Shown: in pieces, positions 23,233 through 46,239 of the stretch
How the letters are laid out: each line of letters begins with the position of its first letter
How positions within the stretch are numbered: position 1 is the stretch's first letter
From: Lachnospiraceae bacterium
GTDB lineage: Bacteria > Bacillota > Clostridia > Lachnospirales > Lachnospiraceae
Assembly (NCBI GenBank): GCA_910573755.1
Contig: CAJTBO010000013.1
Span: 1 to 64,000, forward strand
DNA: 64,000 nt
Direction of reading: 5' to 3'
Translations under genes and position numbers: made by a program
The notes under the pieces: model-generated
What the model was told of the DNA's origin: nothing
What the model saw: only the letters and a program-made list of their open reading frames with translations
The model's database searches: none

Positions 23233-23433
23233 ATGGCAACTTCAAGTATCACAAAGAATTTTGTCATTTCCGGCAAGGAACAGGTGGAGATGTTTGTCAA
23301 CGCAATTGAAGAATCTGCCAAGAACCGTCCTGTTCATATACCTGTAGCGGCAAGCGAAATAACAGATGATGCAGAATTGCTTGAATTTATGCGAATGAGG
23401 AAAAAGGCAAATGACAGAAAAAAACAAATATAG
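23233..23433 (+). CDS. Candidate antitoxin of a GNAT toxin pair (copy 1)
   Basis: 66 residues beginning MATSSITKNFVISGKEQVEM and ending in a charged tail (FMRMRKKANDRKKQI). It overlaps the following acetyltransferase gene by 23 bp. A small protein directly upstream of, and overlapping, a GNAT-fold protein is the typical layout of acetyltransferase toxin-antitoxin pairs. The role is inferred from layout; a second copy at 39995 supports a mobile module. Confidence 0.6.
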   Translation: MATSSITKNFVISGKEQVEMFVNAIEESAKNRPVHIPVAASEITDDAELLEFMRMRKKANDRKKQI

Positions 23434-30617: not shown

Positions 30618-30735
30618 CTATGTGCGGCGGTCTGTCGTATCCGCAGGCACGTCTGACAACAGAAACCGCTTGGAAAGCGGGGGAGTCAGAGTTAATATGC
30701 TTACACGGCGGTTTGCGTTTGTGCCGCCTATATCG
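30618..30735 (+). repeat. Shared leader of LytTR regulator genes (copy A)
   Basis: Aligns with 45550-45700. Common elements are GCGGCGGTCTG, then TTGGAAAGCGGGGGAGTCAGAG and the GGCGGTTTGCG...CCGCC hairpin (about 30706-30731), ending near GACGAAAAACTTTAG. Both copies precede AgrA-type regulator genes. Confidence 0.65.
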
Positions 30736-30792
30736 GACGAATGGCGAAAAACTTTAGGGCTGATTTGGACTTTCAAAAACAAAAAATCTGCG

Positions 30793-30822
30793 ATTCACGT
30801 AGCCAGATTAACCATTCACGAA
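30793..30822 (+). promoter_or_regulatory. LytTR-type direct-repeat operator
   Basis: ATTCACGTA and ATTCACGAA are separated by 12 bp (21-bp period), the layout bound by LytTR dimers. The complement TACGTGAAT fits the LytTR consensus at eight of nine positions. It lies 54 bp before the regulator start, suggesting autoregulation. Confidence 0.55.
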
Positions 30823-30875
30823 GTAGACGTTAGAAATCGCCCTTATTTTTCCGATAAGTTAGTTGAGGACTGGAG

Positions 30876-31607
30876 GTGGCAGAAACGATAAAAATTGCGG
30901 TGTGTGATGATGAAAAAAATATAAGGTCTTACCTTGTTTCGCTCATCAAAAAGCAGGGAGGGGAGTGCGGCATCACGGAATATGCCTCTGCCGATGCGTA
31001 CCTCTCGGACGGTAAGGAGCATGACATTATTTTTCTGGACATAGAGATGGGCGGCTCCGGCGCAGGTCTGGACGGCATGGGACTGGCAAGGCATATCCGG
31101 GGCATGGAGGCGCAGAAACAGCCTATCATCATTTTTGTGACAGGGTATGAAAAATATGTGTATGACGCATTTGACGTAGGGGCGTTCCAGTATCTGGTAA
31201 AGCCCGTGGACGAACAGAAATTCGCAGAGGTGTTCGGACGGGCGGCGGGGCAGGTTTTATCCGAGGCGGAGCAGCGGAAGAAAAAACTTGTGATCCAGTA
31301 TGGCGGCGAGGGAAAGGCAATACCGCTGAATGACATTTATTACATGGAAAGCCGGAACCACAATATCATCCTGTACCTGAAAGACGGAAGTATGGAATAC
31401 TATGCGAAAATCGGGGATTTGGAGGAGGAGCTGGCGGGGCAGTTCTACCGCATCCACCGGGGATACCTTATCAACCTTTTCCATGTGGAGGGTTACGATA
31501 AGACGGAGGTAAGGATGGCGAACGGGGATAAGCTGCTTCTTTCAAGGTATAAATATGACGGCTTTGTGCAGGCGTACATGGATTACATTTCGGAGGAAAG
31601 CCTATGA
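30876..31607 (+). CDS. AgrA-like LytTR response regulator
   Basis: 243 residues: a receiver domain (CDDEKNIR pocket, phospho-Asp in DIIFLDIEM, Lys in QYLVKPV) followed by a LytTR DNA-binding domain (YYMESRNHNIILYLKDGSME, FYRIHRGYLINLFHV). It starts with GTG; the ribosome site is weak and partly overlaps the start. Its stop overlaps the kinase start by 4 bp (ATGA). The sensor partner is the next gene. Targets are probably its own leader and the downstream cassette. Confidence 0.9.
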   Translation: MAETIKIAVCDDEKNIRSYLVSLIKKQGGECGITEYASADAYLSDGKEHDIIFLDIEMGGSGAGLDGMGLARHIRGMEAQKQPIIIFVTGYEKYVYDAFDVGAFQYLVKPVDEQKFAEVFGRAAGQVLSEAEQRKKKLVIQYGGEGKAIPLNDIYYMESRNHNIILYLKDGSMEYYAKIGDLEEELAGQFYRIHRGYLINLFHVEGYDKTEVRMANGDKLLLSRYKYDGFVQAYMDYISEESL

Positions 31608-33013
31608 GCCAGCCAGCGTTTGAAATAGTGAATAGCATCTTGGATATATGGAAGATTGCCGTACAAGCCATCATGTTCCTTGTTTTGTGGGCGGCGGCTT
31701 TCAGGGAGAAAAAATCAAAAAGGGATGGCATTGCGGCAGTGCTGTTTATCCTTGCCAATATAGGGATAGGATTCCTTTCGTGTGCCGCTTGGGTGCGATA
31801 TGGCGTTTCCGCTTTCGCAATAATGGGTTATGCCGGGATATGTTATAAAAAGCAGATTGGAAAAGCAGTATTTGTGATGCTCGCTTTTTATAACCTCCAT
31901 TGTCTTGGCTATTTGATGGCGAGCAGTATTTATGAAAAAGTGATGAGCGTTATGATGAAAAGTATTGATTTTCTGCAGGATAGTTACCTGCAGGAAGTGA
32001 ATCAATGCATGGCAGTTGGGGTGTTCTGCCTGACATTTTCTTATTCCGTATTATTGGCGACAATGACGCTTATTTTGTACAGACTTATGAAGGGTGTAAC
32101 TATAATGGCGTGGCAGGATGTTATCCTGCTTTCCATCCTGAATTTTGTCGGGAGCATGATTACAAAAATCATTGTAGGGCTGCTTACTGTAAAGATAGAT
32201 GATGAGCTTTTTATTTTATTTGATGAGAAACCGGATCTGTTATGGAAAATGCCGCTGGTCGCAGTTCTTATATTTGCGGGGGAAGCTGCATTGATTTATT
32301 TCTGGCAGAGATACCGTATCCTGCTTGCCGAGAGACAGAAACATTTCGTGGAGGAACAGCAGGTCAGGGCCATGAAGAAGCGTCTGGAGGAAGCGGAGAA
32401 TTTCTATGGAAGCATCCGGAGGGTGCGCCATGAGATGAAGAACCATATGGCGAACATCAAAGGACTGGCAGGAGCCGGGGAGTATGGGGAGATAGAGGAA
32501 TACGTCCGCAGGATGGATGAGACCATGCAGGAACTGGAATATAAGTATGTGACGGGGAATGCGGTGACGGATGTCATCATCAATGACAAATGCCGCAGGG
32601 CTGAAAAAGTGGGAATCCGGTTTGACGCAGATTTCCGGTACGGAGGGGAAATCCCAGCATTTGATTTAGGGATTATCCTAAACAATCTTCTGGATAATGC
32701 CATAGAGGCCTGTGAAAAGCTGGAAACAGGTAAAGGATTTGTACGCCTTTCATTAAAGCGGAAAAAGCAGTTTTTGATACTGTATGTAGAAAATAGCTTT
32801 GACGGCGCTGTCCCTATAAGCAAAGGCAGTCCGCTCCCGCCTACAACGAAACAGAGTATCCTGCCGGGAATCATTACGGAGCATGGGATAGGGCTTGAAA
32901 ATGTGCGGGATATTGCAGAGAGGTATTTCGGTGGTGTAAACATAAAAGTGAAAGGGGATGTGTTCCATGTGACGGTAATGCTGCAGCAGGAAAATCAGGA
33001 TAAAATTGTGTGA
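31604..33013 (+). CDS. AgrC-like GHKL sensor histidine kinase
   Basis: 469 residues. About six hydrophobic helices (residues 8-230) form the membrane sensor, as in peptide-pheromone receptors. A coiled linker, the phospho-acceptor His276 in RRVRHEMKNHMANIKGL, and a GHKL ATPase (LNNLLDNAIEACEKLE, GIGLENVRDIAERYFGG) follow. No AgrB/AgrD peptide-maker genes are visible nearby, so the signal is unknown. It is coupled by ATGA to the regulator upstream, and its stop lies 27 bp before the cassette's first gene. Confidence 0.9.
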   Translation: MSQPAFEIVNSILDIWKIAVQAIMFLVLWAAAFREKKSKRDGIAAVLFILANIGIGFLSCAAWVRYGVSAFAIMGYAGICYKKQIGKAVFVMLAFYNLHCLGYLMASSIYEKVMSVMMKSIDFLQDSYLQEVNQCMAVGVFCLTFSYSVLLATMTLILYRLMKGVTIMAWQDVILLSILNFVGSMITKIIVGLLTVKIDDELFILFDEKPDLLWKMPLVAVLIFAGEAALIYFWQRYRILLAERQKHFVEEQQVRAMKKRLEEAENFYGSIRRVRHEMKNHMANIKGLAGAGEYGEIEEYVRRMDETMQELEYKYVTGNAVTDVIINDKCRRAEKVGIRFDADFRYGGEIPAFDLGIILNNLLDNAIEACEKLETGKGFVRLSLKRKKQFLILYVENSFDGAVPISKGSPLPPTTKQSILPGIITEHGIGLENVRDIAERYFGGVNIKVKGDVFHVTVMLQQENQDKIV

Positions 33014-33039
33014 CGGAAAAAGAAAGGAGAGAATGTATT

Positions 33040-33696
33040 ATGAGTATGTTAGGAGTAAGCAATGCCGTAATAGGTGCATATCAGCACATAGGCAGGACGC
33101 AGAAAAATGCGGCAAGTGGAGCAAGTTTTACAGAACGGGCAGCGCAGACACAGGAAGCCTCGGATGCAGAAAAACTGGAGAATTTCAAAAAAGAAATCTG
33201 GAATGAGATAAATTCCATGCCGTGGGGAGCAAATACTTCCATACAGATAACGGATGGGGCTTTTAGGAAAATGATGGAAGACGGCGAATTTAAAAACAAA
33301 ATGATGAAGATCATCCGGGAGGATGCCGTCGGTTCCAATAAGATGTGCGGTGGGACGTTGATAAACATTGATGAAAATGGGTATAAAGGTTATTCCTATA
33401 TGGCAGACCATGCAAAAGAGGCAGGCTCGGCATTTGCAGCTCATTCCAAAGATAAGGATGCTTTTTATGTAAAAAAAGCAGAAAAAAGGCGGGAGTATAT
33501 GAGGCTGTTGGAGGAAAAGCGGGTGCAGGCTAAGAGACAGCAGCAGGAACTTTTGGACGAAAAGATTGCAAAGGCGGAACAGGAGAGAAGCAGGCTGGCA
33601 AAGGCGTGGAGCAGTAAGCAGCAGATGGCGAAGGTTTCCAGTGCTTATGAATCGAATATAATGACGGAAACTGTGGCAGGCGGTGAGGTAAAGTAA
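33040..33696 (+). CDS. Cassette protein 1, leaderless helical protein of unknown function
   Basis: 218 residues from the ATG at 33040, after GAAAGGAGAG. There is no signal peptide or transmembrane helix. The N-terminus MSMLGVSNAVIGAYQHIG is followed by an Ala-rich linker. A globular part (KKEIWNEINSMPWGANTS to GGTLINIDENGYKGYSYM) precedes a long charged helix (KKAEKRREYMRLLEEKRVQA). The globular and helix parts parallel the protein at 35221, so the two are related. I do not know a function; the layout resembles proteins in Lachnospiraceae that I recall only as DUF entries. Confidence 0.72.
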   Translation: MSMLGVSNAVIGAYQHIGRTQKNAASGASFTERAAQTQEASDAEKLENFKKEIWNEINSMPWGANTSIQITDGAFRKMMEDGEFKNKMMKIIREDAVGSNKMCGGTLINIDENGYKGYSYMADHAKEAGSAFAAHSKDKDAFYVKKAEKRREYMRLLEEKRVQAKRQQQELLDEKIAKAEQERSRLAKAWSSKQQMAKVSSAYESNIMTETVAGGEVK

Positions 33697-33697
33697 A

Positions 33698-35092
33698 ATG
33701 AATGGCATATCATTATCAAGCAAAGTAATCCATTGGAATCCGAAGGATTTTGCCGTGAGCCAGAATTTCAACAAGGTAATCCGGGAGAATGAAAAGGTTT
33801 CTAATGATTATTACTGGAAAAGCAATAAGGCTGAGGGTGTGGACTGTTTCGGGAGGGCGGTTGACCTGACCACGCTTATCAATAAGCCGGATGGATATTT
33901 GCAGGGGAGGCTGTCGGATGCGGACGATGCCGACTATTATCAGTTCAACATAGCGGAATACAGGATTTTAGGCACTGTGTCCGACAAGCATAACCTTGAC
34001 ATAACAGTGACACTCGACCACATCCCGGAGGGCTGTGATTATGACCTTGTTTTGTATGACGGCGACGGGAACCAGGTAGGGATTGGCAGGGATAATGGAA
34101 ATGGCGGCAAGAGTGTGATCGTGCCGAACTGGAACCTGGAGAACCGGGAGTATACGGTAAAGGTGCTGGCAAAGGACGGCTCCCCGGTAAATGCGGAGGA
34201 ATATTACCACCTTTCCTTCCAGACGCAGAAGGCGGCAGGGGACAATGTACTCAGGCAGCAGGCAAAGGAAATGCAGGAATACGCCGGTGCGCTGCGCCGG
34301 AAACTGCATGACGGGCAGGACGCAGCAGAAGAAAAACAGGCGCTCCAGCAGATTAGGGAAAAGTACGGGGCGTATTATGCACAGCAGATGGATGAGCTGC
34401 ATAAAACACAGGCGGCGGAATATCTGCCGGAAGGGGAAGTTTTTGATGAAAGCCGTAAGGCTGAACTTCTTTCCAAAATGGCGGCGGGCGGGGAACTGAC
34501 GAAGCAGGAGAAAGGGCTGGCCAATATCTTTGCATCTGCACAGGAAATTGACAGCGCCACAGCGTCCGCAAAACTGCAGGCGGATATCGGTGAAGAAATC
34601 TTCCGGCAGATGGGGCAGTCCGGCATTTCCCCCATACCTTCTTTTGAAGTCAGCATTGGCATAGACGGCAAGGCGGAAGTAAAGGGGATTGAAGATGCGG
34701 CTGTGAAGGAAAAAGTGGAGGACATCCTGAACGGTTTTTCCGGGGAACTGATGGATACTTATATTTCCATAAATGCGGGTATGCAGGGAATGAATAAACA
34801 GGAGCAGTACATATTGAAGGCGGCAATGGGGATCGAGGCATTTTTGCAGAAAGCAACGGGCGGCAAAGTGGCGCTGTCAGACATCACAGTGGAGAACGGC
34901 AGGATAAAAGGGCTGGATGCGCCACTTGATAAACTGCTCAATGATCCGGGGCAGAACCAGACATACCTTGATTATAGGGCGGACATACTTGCAATCAAGA
35001 ATTATGAAAGGATGAATGGAAACGGTCTGCTGGGAGGATTCAGCGCAAGATATGCTGTTGACGGGGAAACAATCCGTACAGTTAGTGTGTAA
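33698..35092 (+). CDS. Cassette protein 2 with a PPC-like beta-sandwich
   Basis: 464 residues starting MNGISLSSKVIHWNPKDFAV, no signal peptide. Residues about 60-175 (YLQGRLSDADDADYYQFNIA, DYDLVLYDGDGNQVG, YTVKVLAKDGS) look like a pre-peptidase C-terminal (PPC) type beta-sandwich, a domain usually found in secreted proteins. The remaining two thirds are helical and Ala/Lys/Glu-rich without recognised motifs. It starts one base after cassette gene 1 stops. The combination of an export-type domain and a missing leader points to an unconventional secretion route, which is inference. Confidence 0.7.
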   Translation: MNGISLSSKVIHWNPKDFAVSQNFNKVIRENEKVSNDYYWKSNKAEGVDCFGRAVDLTTLINKPDGYLQGRLSDADDADYYQFNIAEYRILGTVSDKHNLDITVTLDHIPEGCDYDLVLYDGDGNQVGIGRDNGNGGKSVIVPNWNLENREYTVKVLAKDGSPVNAEEYYHLSFQTQKAAGDNVLRQQAKEMQEYAGALRRKLHDGQDAAEEKQALQQIREKYGAYYAQQMDELHKTQAAEYLPEGEVFDESRKAELLSKMAAGGELTKQEKGLANIFASAQEIDSATASAKLQADIGEEIFRQMGQSGISPIPSFEVSIGIDGKAEVKGIEDAAVKEKVEDILNGFSGELMDTYISINAGMQGMNKQEQYILKAAMGIEAFLQKATGGKVALSDITVENGRIKGLDAPLDKLLNDPGQNQTYLDYRADILAIKNYERMNGNGLLGGFSARYAVDGETIRTVSV

Positions 35093-35139
35093 TGCCGCAG
35101 GCGGAGATACGCTGCTTGGTTAATGAAGGGCATCATGCC

Positions 35140-35195
35140 CGGACTTACCACAAGGGGGCATGGGCGGCTCCGAATGACAGAGGGGGCGCAGGTAA
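35140..35195 (+). repeat. Cassette leader repeat, copy A
   Basis: CCCGGACTTACCACAAGGG then GCATGGGCGGCTC and GACAGAGGGGG. It is shared with copies B and C in front of other cassette genes and ends 25-30 bp before the start codon. Confidence 0.65.
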
Positions 35196-35220
35196 GATTT
35201 TTTGAAGGAGGATGAAAATT

Positions 35221-35964
35221 ATGTCAATGGAGATCACAAACAATTACAGTAACTATGCGGCAAATTATACTGATGCCGTGAAAAAGCCGGATGGCAGAGC
35301 GGCAACAGAGGTAAAGACAAGCAAATCAACAAACAGCAAAGACAAGGTGCAGGCGTATTATGAACAGCTATGCAAAAAATTTCCACAGATAAATTTCAAC
35401 ACAAATGGCGGCGTATTACCAAGCAATAGCAGCAGAGTCACGGTAAATCTTTCGTATGACTGTTTGAAGAAAATGGCAAATGATCCTGAATTCGCAAAAG
35501 AAATCGAATGGAATCTGTCGGGAGAAGTTGCTGCAAACTCAATGGTTTATGGGTGGGCGCAGAGAGATGGTGTCGTACTTGGCGGAAGGACTGTTACATA
35601 TGATGCCAATGGCAACAGGCAGTCATCCTGTGGCGGCATGAGGACAGCAAATACAGGGAATGGAAATAACAATACTGATAAAATACAGAAGAAGTATAAG
35701 GAAGAGGAAGAACGCCTGTTAAAAGCCAGAAAGAAACGTGAAGAAAAGGAAAAAATTGCTGAAAAGCAAGCAGAGAAAAAGGCGGAGGAAGAAAAAGCAG
35801 CGGAACGTCGGGCAGAAAGAAAAGAGCATATGGAAAAACTGATGGAAGGGACGTACAAGGTATCTGCCATTAGCACGGATATGAAAAGTGTTACACAGAA
35901 TATTGTTGAGGTGGTTTCAGGCACATCATCATCCACAGGGGCAAGTTTTGATTTAAAGGCGTAA
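35221..35964 (+). CDS. Cassette protein 3, paralogue of protein 1
   Basis: 247 residues from the ATG at 35221; GAAGGAGG lies ten bases before it, whereas the ATG at 35212 would touch the ribosome site. A Ser/Thr/Asn-rich N-terminus (NNYSNYAANYTDAVKKPDG) precedes a globular part (QAYYEQLCKKFPQINFNTNG, LKKMANDPEFAKEIEWNL, GGRTVTYDANGNRQSSCGGM). A very long Lys/Glu/Ala coiled helix (about residues 160-215) and a short tail ending ASFDLKA follow. No export signal. It is homologous to the protein at 33040 in domain order. Confidence 0.7.
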   Translation: MSMEITNNYSNYAANYTDAVKKPDGRAATEVKTSKSTNSKDKVQAYYEQLCKKFPQINFNTNGGVLPSNSSRVTVNLSYDCLKKMANDPEFAKEIEWNLSGEVAANSMVYGWAQRDGVVLGGRTVTYDANGNRQSSCGGMRTANTGNGNNNTDKIQKKYKEEEERLLKARKKREEKEKIAEKQAEKKAEEEKAAERRAERKEHMEKLMEGTYKVSAISTDMKSVTQNIVEVVSGTSSSTGASFDLKA

Positions 35965-36030
35965 GGGATATTCCGCAGCAGACGGCTCAGATATGGCTGT
36001 TACATAAAAGGAAATCGGAGGGCTTGAAAA

Positions 36031-36285
36031 ATGCGTGTCAGCAGAATAACGGCATTACTTATTACGGCAATGATGATTCCCGCGATCAGCGGATGCACCA
36101 CACAGGGAAGCCCCGCCCCGGATGCCGTGCATCAGATTGAGGATGGCGGCTCGGCGGTCTATGATGATGACCCGATAGCGGTGGAGCCGCAGCTTGACGA
36201 AGATGAGCTGGATAGGGATTCGGATGAATCCAACGTGCAGGGGGAGATCATTTCGGCGGAACCGCATAAAGGGAGTGCGGAATGA
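36031..36285 (+). CDS. Small acidic lipoprotein
   Basis: 84 residues with a type II signal peptide (RITALLITAMMIPAISGC, lipobox AISGC at Cys22), then an acidic low-complexity tail (DEDELDRDSDES). It should be anchored outside the membrane. A ParA-like gene start overlaps its stop by ATGA but is truncated. It lies within the cassette after GGAGGGCTTG. Confidence 0.82.
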   Translation: MRVSRITALLITAMMIPAISGCTTQGSPAPDAVHQIEDGGSAVYDDDPIAVEPQLDEDELDRDSDESNVQGEIISAEPHKGSAE

Positions 36286-36338
36286 AAAAAGTAATTGCAG
36301 TAATTTCAGCGAAGGGAGGTGTTTGTCATGAAGTTTGA
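36282..36338 (+). pseudogene. Truncated ParA/MinD-like gene start
   Basis: 18 codons: MKKVIAVISAKGGVCHEV then stop. The first 14 residues match the start of ParA/MinD ATPases up to the deviant Walker A KGGVGKT, where the sequence switches to unrelated DNA. The same switch occurs in the repeat at 3074-3140. Confidence 0.55.
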
Positions 36339-36368
36339 CAGGGGAAGTTAGGCGGTATGTCTGCATGG
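36302..36368 (+). repeat. 67-bp dispersed repeat (copy 2)
   Basis: Counterpart of 3074-3140. It contains the broken ParA Walker A segment and TGTCATGAAGTTTGACAGGG, and runs directly into cassette leader copy B. Confidence 0.55.
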
Positions 36369-36384
36369 AGGTAATGAACTGCTC

Positions 36385-36445
36385 GGACTTATCATGAGGG
36401 AGCAGAGGCGGCTCTGAACGACAGAGGGGCTGCTATAAAATAATT
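36385..36445 (+). repeat. Cassette leader repeat, copy B
   Basis: CTCGGACTTATCATGAGGG then GCAGAGGCGGCTCTGAACG and GACAGAGGGGCTGC. Closely matches copy A at 35140 and the 3' half of copy C. Confidence 0.65.
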
Positions 36446-36468
36446 GATGACAATGGAGGATTTGAAAA

Positions 36469-37704
36469 ATGAGCGTAAATGGAATAGGGGTGGGTTTTCC
36501 CGCATGGCGTGATATGGGAAAGTCACAGAGGAATGGTTCGGGAACAGGATTTGCAGGCAGAATGGCTGGTACAGATATGGTGAGTGAAAGTTCTGGTTAT
36601 AATTTCCTTTATTCAAAAGCGGGAGGAAGGTTTTCTGCATATGATGCATATTCCATAATGGGCAGTATGGGTTCAAGGTTTAATACAAATAATCTTAAGG
36701 CAGAAACAAATCAGCCAATTGAAAAAGTAGAAAGTGAGCGGTATCTAATTGAACCGTCCGATGAGATATCTGGATATTGGCGTATATATGATAAGAAACT
36801 TGATAAATCATTTGAGTTTGATCCCAATAATACATCGGTACAAACAGATGGCAATTCGGGTAAAAATTACATCGTGGCGACTGACCCAAGGGGAGGGCTG
36901 ATGGATGTCGTGCCCGCTGGCAGTGAGCTTATGGAGACATTGGCACAGTTTTTAAATGTCGATAATGCAGACAGTATTCCTACATCATCCTTAAATGAAA
37001 AATACACGATAGAGGTGAATGCGTTTACAGGAATAGAGTGCCTGAAAATCAAAGGGAACGAAGGCGGCGGTTCATGGCTCATGGTCAGCGATGAACAGCA
37101 GATGGGGAAATTGCGGGAACTGGCGGATATGTATAAGGAAAAGTATCCTAACCTTATAAAATCAGAAAGTGTGGCAATGGGATTTGCACAGGCCGAAGTA
37201 GCAGGTCAGGCTGTCAGGACAGAAGATGGAATCATGATGATTACCTGTAATGGGATGAACTATATGGATGATGCCAATCCATCCAAGAGCTGGGCTGTCA
37301 TGTATCCAATAGGGGCAACGCATATGTATATGGAAATTATGAATGCAATGGCGGAGGGGTATATAGAAGCGAAAGACATCAAGGAATATTCAAAGTGGGA
37401 GAAATATTTTGAAGAAAGAGGACTGGAATTTGAAAGAATCTTATCAGATGAGGAATTGGAGCAGGCAGATAAACAGGAATCTGAATCAAAGACAGATATT
37501 ATTGTTAAGCCAGATGGTTCAAGGGTGCTTGTAATGACAATGAGTATTGGCGGAATGGAAACTACAATGAGTTTAGAAATTTCCAAGCCGACAGAAGCAC
37601 CAAATGAAAATTCAGAGCATGATACCGATAATAATATGCCATCTGATGATACCGGAATGGATACAGTATCGGATGAAGTGTCGAATATTTCAACGGAGGC
37701 TTAG
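36469..37704 (+). CDS. Cassette protein 4 (MSVNGIG start)
   Basis: 411 residues beginning MSVNGIGVGFPAWRD, no signal peptide. A Gly/Ser-rich N-terminal region is followed by a mixed alpha/beta core (IEPSDEISGYWRIYDKKLDK, GGSWLMVSDEQQMGKLRELA, MNYMDDANPSKSWAVMYPIG) and a disordered acidic tail (NENSEHDTDNNMPSDDTG). The MSVNGIG start is shared with the protein at 37807, and both genes have the same leader repeat. I recognise no catalytic motif. GGAGGATTTG precedes the ATG. Confidence 0.72.
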   Translation: MSVNGIGVGFPAWRDMGKSQRNGSGTGFAGRMAGTDMVSESSGYNFLYSKAGGRFSAYDAYSIMGSMGSRFNTNNLKAETNQPIEKVESERYLIEPSDEISGYWRIYDKKLDKSFEFDPNNTSVQTDGNSGKNYIVATDPRGGLMDVVPAGSELMETLAQFLNVDNADSIPTSSLNEKYTIEVNAFTGIECLKIKGNEGGGSWLMVSDEQQMGKLRELADMYKEKYPNLIKSESVAMGFAQAEVAGQAVRTEDGIMMITCNGMNYMDDANPSKSWAVMYPIGATHMYMEIMNAMAEGYIEAKDIKEYSKWEKYFEERGLEFERILSDEELEQADKQESESKTDIIVKPDGSRVLVMTMSIGGMETTMSLEISKPTEAPNENSEHDTDNNMPSDDTGMDTVSDEVSNISTEA

Positions 37705-37734
37705 AAAGCGTGGGCAGCTTTAAGAATACTGGTA

Positions 37735-37770
37735 GCCGTGCAAGAACAGATATGGTCTGACCGACAGAGG
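37735..37770 (+). repeat. Cassette leader repeat, copy C (partial)
   Basis: Keeps GATATGGTCTGACCGACAGA and GGGGCTGC before the start of the PEBP-like gene; the 5' half of the consensus is diverged. Confidence 0.55.
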
Positions 37771-37806
37771 GGCTGCAATAATAAAAATAATGGAGGACAT
37801 TTGGAG

Positions 37807-38811
37807 ATGAGTGTAAATGGAATAGGGACAGCGGGATATCCGCTGACAGGATACACGGCAAGGAAAATGGGAAGAAGTGCAGAGTCCGGAACGGTGGGAT
37901 TCATGGAAACGGTGGAAGAAAAGGCGGCGCAGGGAAAGTCAGCCGACCAGGACGAGAAAGCCTTTGAGATGGTCGGCCGGGGCGCCCCGCAGGAAGTGAA
38001 GGATGCGTGGATGGATGCGGCGAAAGAAGTAAATGCGAATGGCATGGGAATCTGGGGCAACGGGATGATGAGCCACATATCGCAGATGATGGTGCAGCGG
38101 CTTAATAAACAGCTTAAGGGTGAAACGGAGAATTTTATAGGGCGTTTTTGGAAAAATTGGAGAAGTTATATGACGCATATCCCCGATAAGTCACAGCCTG
38201 ACAAGGAAGGGCAGGCATCCCCGGCGTTCCGGCAGATTGGGGAATCGGGGAGCAGGGAGGAAAGTAGGAATAAACTGCTCAAACTTATTATGAAGGGTAT
38301 GGGTGTGGATTTGAAAAGTGGACTAGAGATAACAAGAAGGATTATGAATAATACTGTTTTGGAATTTGAGTGCGTTGGCATGGATGGTGGAAGCAAATTT
38401 CCCATCAAATATACCGGACGTGGGCAGGACATATCGCCGGAATTTATAATTAAGAACCTGTCACCAAATGCGAAAACCCTCGCTGTTACATTGGAAGATT
38501 TATCACACCCAATTAAGGATTTTACGCATTGGGTTATATGGAACATTCCTGCCACTGACAGAATAAAGAAAAATATTCCTGTTGGCAAGACAGTGCCAAT
38601 GTTGGGGAATGCCCGTCAGGGGATAGGATATGGCTTTCACCGTTATGCGGGGCCGAAGCCACCGAAAGGGAAAAAGCATACTTACCGCTTTACAGTCTAT
38701 TCCTTGGATTGTGAAATAAATATAAGTGCCAACTCTATGAAAAGAAATTTTCTGAAAAAGGCTGAAAGGCATATCATCCAAAAAGGTAGTATTGTTGGTG
38801 AGTTTGAATAA
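37807..38811 (+). CDS. Cassette protein 5, MSVNGIG N-terminus joined to a PEBP (YbhB-like) domain
   Basis: 334 residues. Residues 1-~120 are an MSVNGIG-type helical region (MSVNGIGTAGYPLTGYTARK). A linker (HIPDKSQPDKEGQ) follows, whose coding DNA is repeated in decayed form after the gene. Residues about 185-334 form a phosphatidylethanolamine-binding-protein fold: FPIKYTGRGQDISPEF (ligand site), FTHWVIWNIP, and GYHFxGP-like GYGFHRYAGPKPPKGKKHTYRFTVYSLD. Bacterial PEBP proteins have varied or unknown roles. The fusion is unusual. It is the last cassette gene. Confidence 0.8.
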   Translation: MSVNGIGTAGYPLTGYTARKMGRSAESGTVGFMETVEEKAAQGKSADQDEKAFEMVGRGAPQEVKDAWMDAAKEVNANGMGIWGNGMMSHISQMMVQRLNKQLKGETENFIGRFWKNWRSYMTHIPDKSQPDKEGQASPAFRQIGESGSREESRNKLLKLIMKGMGVDLKSGLEITRRIMNNTVLEFECVGMDGGSKFPIKYTGRGQDISPEFIIKNLSPNAKTLAVTLEDLSHPIKDFTHWVIWNIPATDRIKKNIPVGKTVPMLGNARQGIGYGFHRYAGPKPPKGKKHTYRFTVYSLDCEINISANSMKRNFLKKAERHIIQKGSIVGEFE

Positions 38812-38834
38812 GATATAAATTCTACGGTTCCATA

Positions 38835-38945
38835 TCCCCGATAAGGCCACAGTCTGACAAGGCAGGGCAGACATCCCCGGTTTTCCAGTAGATCGGGAAA
38901 TCGGGGGAGCAGAAGGAAAACCAATAATAAACAAATGATAAAAGG
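38835..38945 (+). pseudogene. Remnant of a cassette paralogue
   Basis: About 105 bp repeat the linker region of the preceding gene (38177-38280), including CCCCGATAAG and CAGACATCCCCGG, but with an early stop after HIPDKATV. It is probably left from a deleted neighbouring paralogue. Confidence 0.6.
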
Positions 38946-39017
38946 GAACCGGCAGGGTAATAAAGGTGTACTGGAAACCGAAAGGAAAAAGATAAATATA
39001 CATAGCGGGAAAGAATG

Positions 39018-39042
39018 GCAGGAAGGTATCCTGCTATTTTTA
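39018..39042 (+). terminator. Terminator after the cassette
   Basis: GCAGGA-AGGTA-TCCTGC followed by TATTTTTA; closes the unit beginning at 30876. Confidence 0.65.
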
Positions 39043-39994: not shown

Positions 39995-40204
39995 ATGGCA
40001 ACTTCAAGTATCACAAAGAATTTTGTCATTTCCGGCAAGGAACAGGTGGAGATGTTTATCAATGCAATTGAAGAATCTGCCAAGAACCGTCCTGTGCGTA
40101 CTCCGGTAAATGTAGAGTTCATTGAAACTGAGGATGAACTGCGAGAATTTATGAGGTTCAGGGAAAAGAAAGCAAAGGAGAAATTAAATGCCAGTAACGG
40201 ATAA
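39995..40204 (+). CDS. Candidate antitoxin (copy 2)
   Basis: 69 residues. The first 33 match the copy at 23233 except for one conservative change (Val to Ile in MFxNAIEESAKNR). The C-terminal third differs (VNVEFIETEDELREFMRFRE), as expected if partner specificity diverged. It overlaps the start of a broken toxin gene, so this antitoxin is now an orphan. Confidence 0.6.
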   Translation: MATSSITKNFVISGKEQVEMFINAIEESAKNRPVRTPVNVEFIETEDELREFMRFREKKAKEKLNASNG

Positions 40205-45731: not shown

Positions 45732-45763
45732 TTTCGTTCCCTTTCAAATAGAGTTTCGTTCCC
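45732..45763 (+). promoter_or_regulatory. LytTR-type direct repeat
   Basis: TTTCGTTCCC occurs at 45732-45741 and 45754-45763 (12-bp gap, 22-bp period), upstream of the truncated LytTR-family regulator. The spacing, not the exact consensus, suggests a LytTR site. Confidence 0.45.
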
Positions 45764-45834
45764 TCGCGGCTGATTGCGCTAAAATTCTGCCGATATAAAA
45801 AGTAAAAAGAACTGCCCGTGGGGAAGCTATTCTC

Positions 45835-46239
45835 ATGGGAAATGAATTGCAGGTGATGGGATTGAACATAGCCATATGTGATGATGAGGAAATCATCCGT
45901 GAACAGATAAAGGAACTGATAGAAAAAGAAATACTGGGCATATGTGCCGGATTATATGAGACGGGGGATGCGCTGTTTGCCGCCGGGAAGCGGTTTGACA
46001 TTGTGTTCCTTGACATACAGATGGAAGGGACGGACGGGATTGAAACGGCGAAAAGGCTCAGGCAGAGGGAAGAAGATACCATACTGATCTTCATAACAGG
46101 CATCCGGGAATATGTTTTCGAGGCGTTTGACGTGGCGGCGTTCCATTATCAGCTAAAGCCCATTGAGGAAGATAAGTTCCGGGAAGTATTCCACCGGAAA
46201 GGCAATAGATTCACATTGTCGGTCATGGTAAAAAGTTAA
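45835..46239 (+). pseudogene. AgrA-like regulator lacking its LytTR domain
   Basis: 134 residues contain a complete receiver domain (CDDEEIIR, phospho-Asp in DIVFLDIQM, IFITGIREYVFEAFDVAAFH, QLKPIEEDKF) and then stop after an unrelated 12-residue tail. The DNA-binding domain and partner kinase are missing. The start may be ATG 45835 or ATG 45856. A receiver-only protein could still compete for phosphate, but truncation is the simpler reading. Confidence 0.75.

Follow-up and report, generated by a model that had tools for sequence, protein, structure and literature searches.

A sensor-headed gene cassette in a Lachnospiraceae genome as a probable branch of the flagellar late regulon

Results

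We analysed the first 64,000 nucleotides of contig CAJTBO010000013.1 of a Lachnospiraceae bacterium (GenBank assembly GCA_910573755.1), hereafter the window, and within it a plus-strand gene cassette that is led by a sensor pair. The cassette opens with the gene of a LytTR-type response regulator (30876..31607; in Pfam PF04397, 1.6e-18, and PF00072, 3.9e-15), which is followed by that of a GHKL sensor kinase (31604..33013; PF14501, 1.7e-18), relatives of which stand at cassette heads in other genera. Behind the pair lie the genes of protein A, soluble and of 218 amino acids (33040..33696); protein B, of 464 amino acids, with a possible PPC-like domain and then a helical region (33698..35092); protein C, a member of the DUF6033 family with the C-terminal end SFDLKA (35221..35964); protein D, a small lipoprotein whose lipobox, AISGC, was read in the sequence (36031..36285); protein E, of 411 amino acids, which starts MSVNGIG (36469..37704); and protein F, of 334 amino acids, in which an MSVNGIG leader domain (residues 1-110) is joined to a PEBP domain (residues 198-333; gene at 37807..38811). 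A terminator-like stem with a T tail, a consensus match only, closes the cassette at 39011..39041 (plus strand). A first-pass annotation had described this layout, and every one of its elements was found in its place. It had also stated that A, B, C, E and F carry no signal peptide; a simple hydropathy scan of these five leaderless proteins showed no hydrophobic N terminus and no Sec-type or membrane segment in any of them.

Protein C matches PF19498 (DUF6033) at 3.4e-17, with 63.4 bits against a gathering score of 25, and the same Pfam model found no match in A, B, E or F. Protein A is linked remotely to the family through L032:8907-9638, which bridges A (6.4e-14) and C (1.6e-4). The assignment of F to the PEBP/YbhB family, already proposed from the sequence, was borne out by PF01161 (4.9e-24; 85.7 bits, cut-off 24) and by TIGR00481 of NCBIfam (88.4 bits, cut-off 57.75). 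A, B, D and E gave no noteworthy match in Pfam. The PPC-like domain suggested earlier for B found weak support in a match of residues 102-162 to a subtilisin-like protease (E 0.054). A relative of B (L022:8862-10406, 2.2e-40) lies in the cassette of contig C39 of the same genome, E has relatives in 6 other loci, and for D the loci searched yielded a relative in the C21 cassette alone. C39 also encodes a separate protein without a PEBP domain, part of which shares 92% identity with the leader domain of F; in F the leader is therefore joined to a different C-terminal domain.

The MSVNGI start had been proposed as a shared feature before any comparison was made. Starts of the form M-x(0,2)-[IV]-NGI were present in 10 of 83 cassette proteins; among the 534 other proteins encoded in those loci there was 1 such start, in a relative of protein E. 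The cassette proteins were reviewed by hand from gene runs, 36 genes having been dropped beforehand, lipoproteins among them; dropped genes of at least 100 amino acids without a DUF6033 match were counted among the 534. The excess of this start is beyond chance. Its NGI form was fixed in advance by the first-pass annotation; further start motifs came out of the very data on which they were tested, which overstates their p-values.

The window genome carries six DUF6033 matches over five contigs, and the layout of regulator, kinase and payload genes recurs in it on C11 (L020), C13, C21 (L021) and C39 (L022). The same layout was seen in loci of 15 other genera, in line with the earlier expectation that such genes would recur beside LytTR/GHKL pairs. 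Relatives of the window kinase precede such genes in 12 of 20 loci from 17 genomes of other genera, all picked because their DUF6033 matches were weak and of cassette type; at L110 the cassette has two unrelated genes in between. Three further genera (L299, L301 and L303), fetched because earlier pattern and FliD-like searches pointed there, have a regulator, a kinase and FlxA-like or FliD-like genes. FlxA-like proteins of sister cassettes scored over the Pfam cut-off in L112, L114, L123, L299 and L301. FliD_C was matched over cut-off in L123, L299 and L301 and below it in L303, by proteins of about 250 amino acids (best 1e-9).

Homologues scattered without sensor pairs, named at the outset as a result that would speak against the first-pass reading, do exist in part. 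Neighbours were listed for 14 core DUF6033 loci, and at none of them was a regulator/kinase pair seen upstream by eye; at L207 a regulator-like gene follows the core gene. On C35 of the window genome a promoter made up of repeats and CCGATA (G000:C35:36366-36428; L298:14367-14551) lies 123 bp ahead of an MNVNGIG gene and no sensor pair comes between them, which suggests that this gene is controlled in trans by the regulator of another cassette.

DUF6033 was found to travel with the flagellar export protein FlhA. Among 61 relatives, FlhA was present in 21 of 21 genomes with DUF6033, against 44 of all 61. Among 250 Lachnospiraceae genomes of 249 genera, it was present in 80 of 81 genomes with DUF6033 (one of the 81 scoring below the Pfam cut-off), against 129 of all 250 (Fisher 1e-29, uncorrected for phylogeny). 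The FliD-like cassette family was accompanied by FlhA in 95 of 96 genomes and the leader domain of F in 12 of 13. As a control, EssC of type VII secretion was over cut-off in 56 of the 250 genomes and shared 22 with DUF6033, with 18 expected, and is thus not associated with it. Thermotoga maritima, a control genome, gave a below-cut-off match in the DUF6033 searches.

The sequences upstream of DUF6033 genes carry a word of sigma-28 type. In hexamer counts upstream of 60 core genes, CGATAT ranked second and CCGATA fourth, the other leading hexamers being ribosome-site words and GGTTAA. Of the 60 core genes, 38 have CCGATA in the 200 bp upstream; the figures are 21 of 154 for background genes (some DUF6033 genes among them) and 4 of 60 when the reverse strand is read. 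In the named loci, which overlap the 60-gene set in part (at least one contig in common), it precedes 54 of 75 core genes, compared with 5 of 75 on the reverse strand. TAA-N16-18-CCGATA stands ahead of 29 of the 60, and CCGATAT upstream of the genome's own core gene on C6. In flagellar controls, CCGATA lies within 300 bp upstream of 10 of 25 flagellins of relatives (2 of 25 on the reverse strand), and TAAAG-N-TCCGATA upstream of flgM in all 6 examples examined from the window's own genus.

At the head of the window cassette, two direct repeats of 9 bases, spaced 12 bases apart, CGATTCACG (30791..30799) and CCATTCACG (30812..30820), lie upstream of the regulator gene on its own strand, and 27 bp after them, in register, comes a sigma-28-type -10 element, CCGATAA (30851..30857, plus strand). 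The repeats sit just upstream of the place where a -35 element is expected. They share the geometry of reported LytTR sites, which PMC4847170 gives as 9-11 nucleotides with 11-13 between. A pattern built from them matched once in the window, with 0.10 matches expected.

In a distance scan over cassette heads, the match to the repeats was best 27 bp ahead of [CT]CGATAW, where it averaged 7.2 of 9 positions over a background of about 2, and reached at least 7 of 9 at 13 of 18 such sites in 23 upstream sequences. Six of the 23 had no [CT]CGATAW site in the slice used, one of which (L020) shows a site in a separate scan. A regulator start was found at 17 of 20 heads, the one at L119 being plainly wrong, and 11 of the 17 combine repeats with CCGATA or TCGATA; heads within one genus are not independent in these counts. 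In the nine genomes of the window's genus, a strict head pattern gave 26 matches, compared with 2 for reversed controls. At L119 itself (L119:7096-8382) a single open reading frame of 428 amino acids matches both regulator and kinase, and is either a fusion or a frame error.

Pointing away from the cassette is a putative divergent promoter of sigma-28 type, TAAAGTTTTTCGCCATTCGTCCGATAT (30730..30756, minus strand). This TAAAG-N-TCCGATA promoter, whose layout matches that of the own-genus flgM promoter, was found in 6 copies in the genus upstream of heads: at 30730-30756 and about 45699 in the window, both on the minus strand, and in L021, L022, L032 and L267. One copy other than the window's two is partial. 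The window's second copy belongs to a decayed head (45732..46239, plus strand), in which LytTR-type repeats (45732-45762) and CCGATA (45790-45795) precede a short LytTR-regulator-like open reading frame of 134 amino acids (45835-46239), with no kinase or payload gene behind it. Downstream of most of the divergent copies there is a conserved GCATATTACCTCT-like stretch, possibly a small RNA.

The proteins themselves were examined for signs of export. In two sets of core DUF6033 proteins, 75 of 77 and 52 of 60 have no cysteine, and the same holds for 18 of 25 flagellins; the 83 cassette proteins contain 0.66% cysteine, compared with 1.50% in the 534 others and 1.45% in the 281 soluble ones among these. 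A Sec signal or membrane segment was found in none of the 60 core and none of the 83 cassette proteins, as against 27% and 36% of the 534. A matrix built from FlgM N termini (taken from 26 of 30 loci) separated core DUF6033 proteins from other proteins with an area under the curve of 0.87, and the cassette set with 0.75; the best values from 200 random matrices were 0.71 and 0.67, respectively. In a predicted structure of one core protein, from Butyrivibrio sp. MC2021 (48 sequences; mean predicted local distance difference test score (pLDDT) 72.7), residues 1-34 are modelled as disordered (pLDDT below 50) and are followed by a confident alpha/beta part. Structural comparison of this model gave no convincing match to a solved fold.

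Discussion

We propose to place the cassette in the late (sigma-28) flagellar regulon, as a branch gated by a sensor, and to regard its leaderless products as substrates of flagellar type III export, a reading to which we give a probability of about 0.6. Its place in the flagellar regulon is well supported and very probable; export through the flagellum is the likeliest, and a probable, fate of the products. The first-pass annotation had seen in the cassette a peptide-controlled unit whose products leave the cell or form an assembly by an unconventional route. An unconventional exit is likely, with the flagellar exporter as its best candidate; control by a peptide found no support, as set out below.

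By this mechanism the kinase would sense a signal from outside, and the phosphorylated regulator would bind the repeats, replace the -35 contact and help sigma-28 polymerase to start the regulator's own operon. The products would be made only in cells with finished hooks, and their N-terminal leader would direct them out through the flagellar channel. Outside, they might become accessory proteins of the filament or be effectors set free, with PEBP and other exchangeable domains forming the payload. Going further, it is possible, though we hold it only tentatively, that these are flagellum-delivered, sensor-gated effectors of Gram-positive gut bacteria, with diversified payloads behind a common short MSVNGI-type leader and LytTR-activated sigma-28 promoters. 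They might then be expressed only in motile cells that receive the signal and be released onto neighbours, mucus or host.

Several observations weigh against the flagellar export reading. As to co-occurrence, genome G266 has DUF6033 and a FliD-like protein with no FlhA match, G191 has a weak leader-domain match and no FlhA, and DUF6033 is missing from 49 of 129 FlhA genomes; it is therefore no core flagellar part and is not needed for building flagella. As to promoters, the main flagellin of the own genus lacks CCGATA in 5 orthologues within 700 bp upstream. The -35 region of the cassette heads is not the sigma-28 TAAA, and no conserved -35 was found in them. The heads of L109, L113 and L114 have the repeats with a -10 element that is TATAAT-like by eye, and sigma-A may therefore be used there; the L121 head shows CCGATAT without repeats. 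Three of the 8 own-genome matches to the strict head pattern are not head-like, and in 52 other genomes the pattern gave 13 matches to 15 in controls, so that its enrichment is confined to the window's genus. As to the proteins, the window's five leaderless proteins retain some cysteine (0.60%), and the lack of membrane segments in the set of 83, though not in the 60 core proteins, is partly a product of selection, 36 genes having been dropped. The cassette set appears to resemble FlgM N termini only weakly, and taken singly the window's five are not FlgM-like, their N termini ranking at percentiles 16 to 81 among other proteins.

The cassette might belong to the flagellar regulon and yet encode proteins that stay cell-bound or serve as accessory parts, such as chaperones, motor or hook accessories or minor filament proteins, with no released effector. 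We consider this unlikely, although it agrees with several of the findings: there are members of flagellar type, FlxA-like and FliD-like, many genomes have a single DUF6033 match, and depletion of cysteine is compatible with a filament part. The swapped PEBP domain of F and the diverged copies within one genome better suit variable proteins that are delivered or exposed at the surface, and a cell-bound chaperone would presumably have no need to lose cysteine.

It is still less probable that the flagellar link reflects shared ancestry only, lineages that kept flagella having also kept these genes, and that CCGATA belongs to another regulator. The co-occurrence figures are uncorrected by a species tree, the head has no TAAA -35, and in some heads the -10 is TATAAT-like, all of which this explanation would accommodate. 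It does not sit easily with 80 of 81 genomes drawn from nearly as many genera when FlhA was not found in 121 of the 250, or with an EssC control that lacks any such link, and the word CCGATA also precedes the own-genus flgM and 10 of the 25 flagellins.

The explanations by Agr, type VII secretion and phage defence fail or find no support. Control by a peptide through an AgrA/AgrC pair had been proposed for this cassette, and an Agr-like quorum circuit for secreted or contact-dependent proteins, exported by Sec, type VII or another route, would have in its favour the LytTR and GHKL layout and the LytTR-type repeats ahead of the regulator's own gene. The regulator, however, reaches 37.4 bits where the NCBIfam AgrA cut-off is 400, and no AgrB lies beside the cassettes, the only one found in the genome being on another contig (G000:C2:249547). 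The hydropathy scan speaks against Sec, and type VII export is unlikely, as no EssC over cut-off was found in the window genome (two of ten first-look candidates scored). Such a circuit would also leave the flagellar co-occurrence and CCGATA unexplained, and we regard it as very improbable. A phage-defence or prophage island, which the multi-copy, diversified and modular genes might recall, is hardly credible, as PADLOC gave only weak matches of C (Cas4b 8e-4, JetA 6e-3) with none for the other proteins, and the PHROGs matches were to F, in its PEBP domain (7e-18), and weakly to B (0.0027).

The closest parallel to the proposed export is found in Campylobacter jejuni, where, according to PMC5223770, production and secretion of the Fed proteins (flagellar co-expressed determinants) depend on sigma-28, and the flagellar apparatus is reportedly needed for export of Cia and other non-flagellar proteins. 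The cassette would share with Fed both sigma-28 dependence and secretion, export being experimental for Fed and inferred here. Campylobacter is Gram-negative; the system proposed here is from Gram-positive gut bacteria and differs by a sensor pair of its own, by many paralogous cassettes and by domains that can be exchanged. We know of no sensor pair belonging to Fed or Cia.

Escherichia coli flxA is transcribed by FliA (PMC4183435). Proteins of its family (PF14282) are over cut-off in sister cassettes, and Pfam gave no FlxA match in the window cassette itself. To our knowledge, E. coli flxA has no LytTR/GHKL pair. Likewise FliD, hook-associated protein 2, is matched through FliD_C by sister-cassette proteins and by none in the window cassette; the usual FliD is longer than these proteins. 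With FlgM, the exported anti-sigma-28 factor, core DUF6033 proteins share high-scoring N termini and the window's five do not, and no common domain was found beyond the leader. The likeness to Agr systems lies in the LytTR regulator, the GHKL kinase and the direct repeats at the promoter; the cassette differs in having no adjacent AgrB and a regulator far below the AgrA equivalog cut-off, AgrD not having been searched with a model.

If the proposed reading is true, the DUF6033, FliD-like, FlxA-like and MSVNGI-type families, together a large and so far unnamed set of proteins, can be tested as a flagellar secretome. The promoter signature would then help to find more members, and the sensor pair would couple outside signals to motility. 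The system would be a Gram-positive counterpart, with regulators of its own, to the flagellar export of non-flagellar proteins in Campylobacter. It looks like a previously undescribed flagellum-based secretion programme in gut bacteria. Among titles and the openings of abstracts, no paper was found on non-filament flagellar exports of such bacteria or on such a system, and the literature search found none that mentions DUF6033.

Other observations on cassette loci and the window

Judged by title, most of the named relatives are Lachnospiraceae of gut and rumen. Among the 80 named loci, L170 and L181 are in assemblies that bear the titles Alistipes and Bacteroides, suggesting metagenome bins that are mixed or carry a wrong label. 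The DUF6033 gene of Eubacterium plexicaudatum ASF492 (L191:5161-7647) has a gene on either side, one of them for a soluble partner; the other encodes a protein starting MRITTHML, which by eye looks FlgL-like. Cassette-neighbour proteins starting M[KR]IADSTVNM-SGRNYT are encoded at L126:14315-15628, L303:4109-5365 and L304:3504-4817, and the first of these has DxDxDG-type stretches that by eye look calcium-binding. Within the window, two paralogous small open reading frames (MATSSITKNFVISGKEQVEMF...) at 23233-23433 and 39995-40204 each have TAAA-N-CCGATAT upstream and a further open reading frame behind; they are possibly an antitoxin-type pair.

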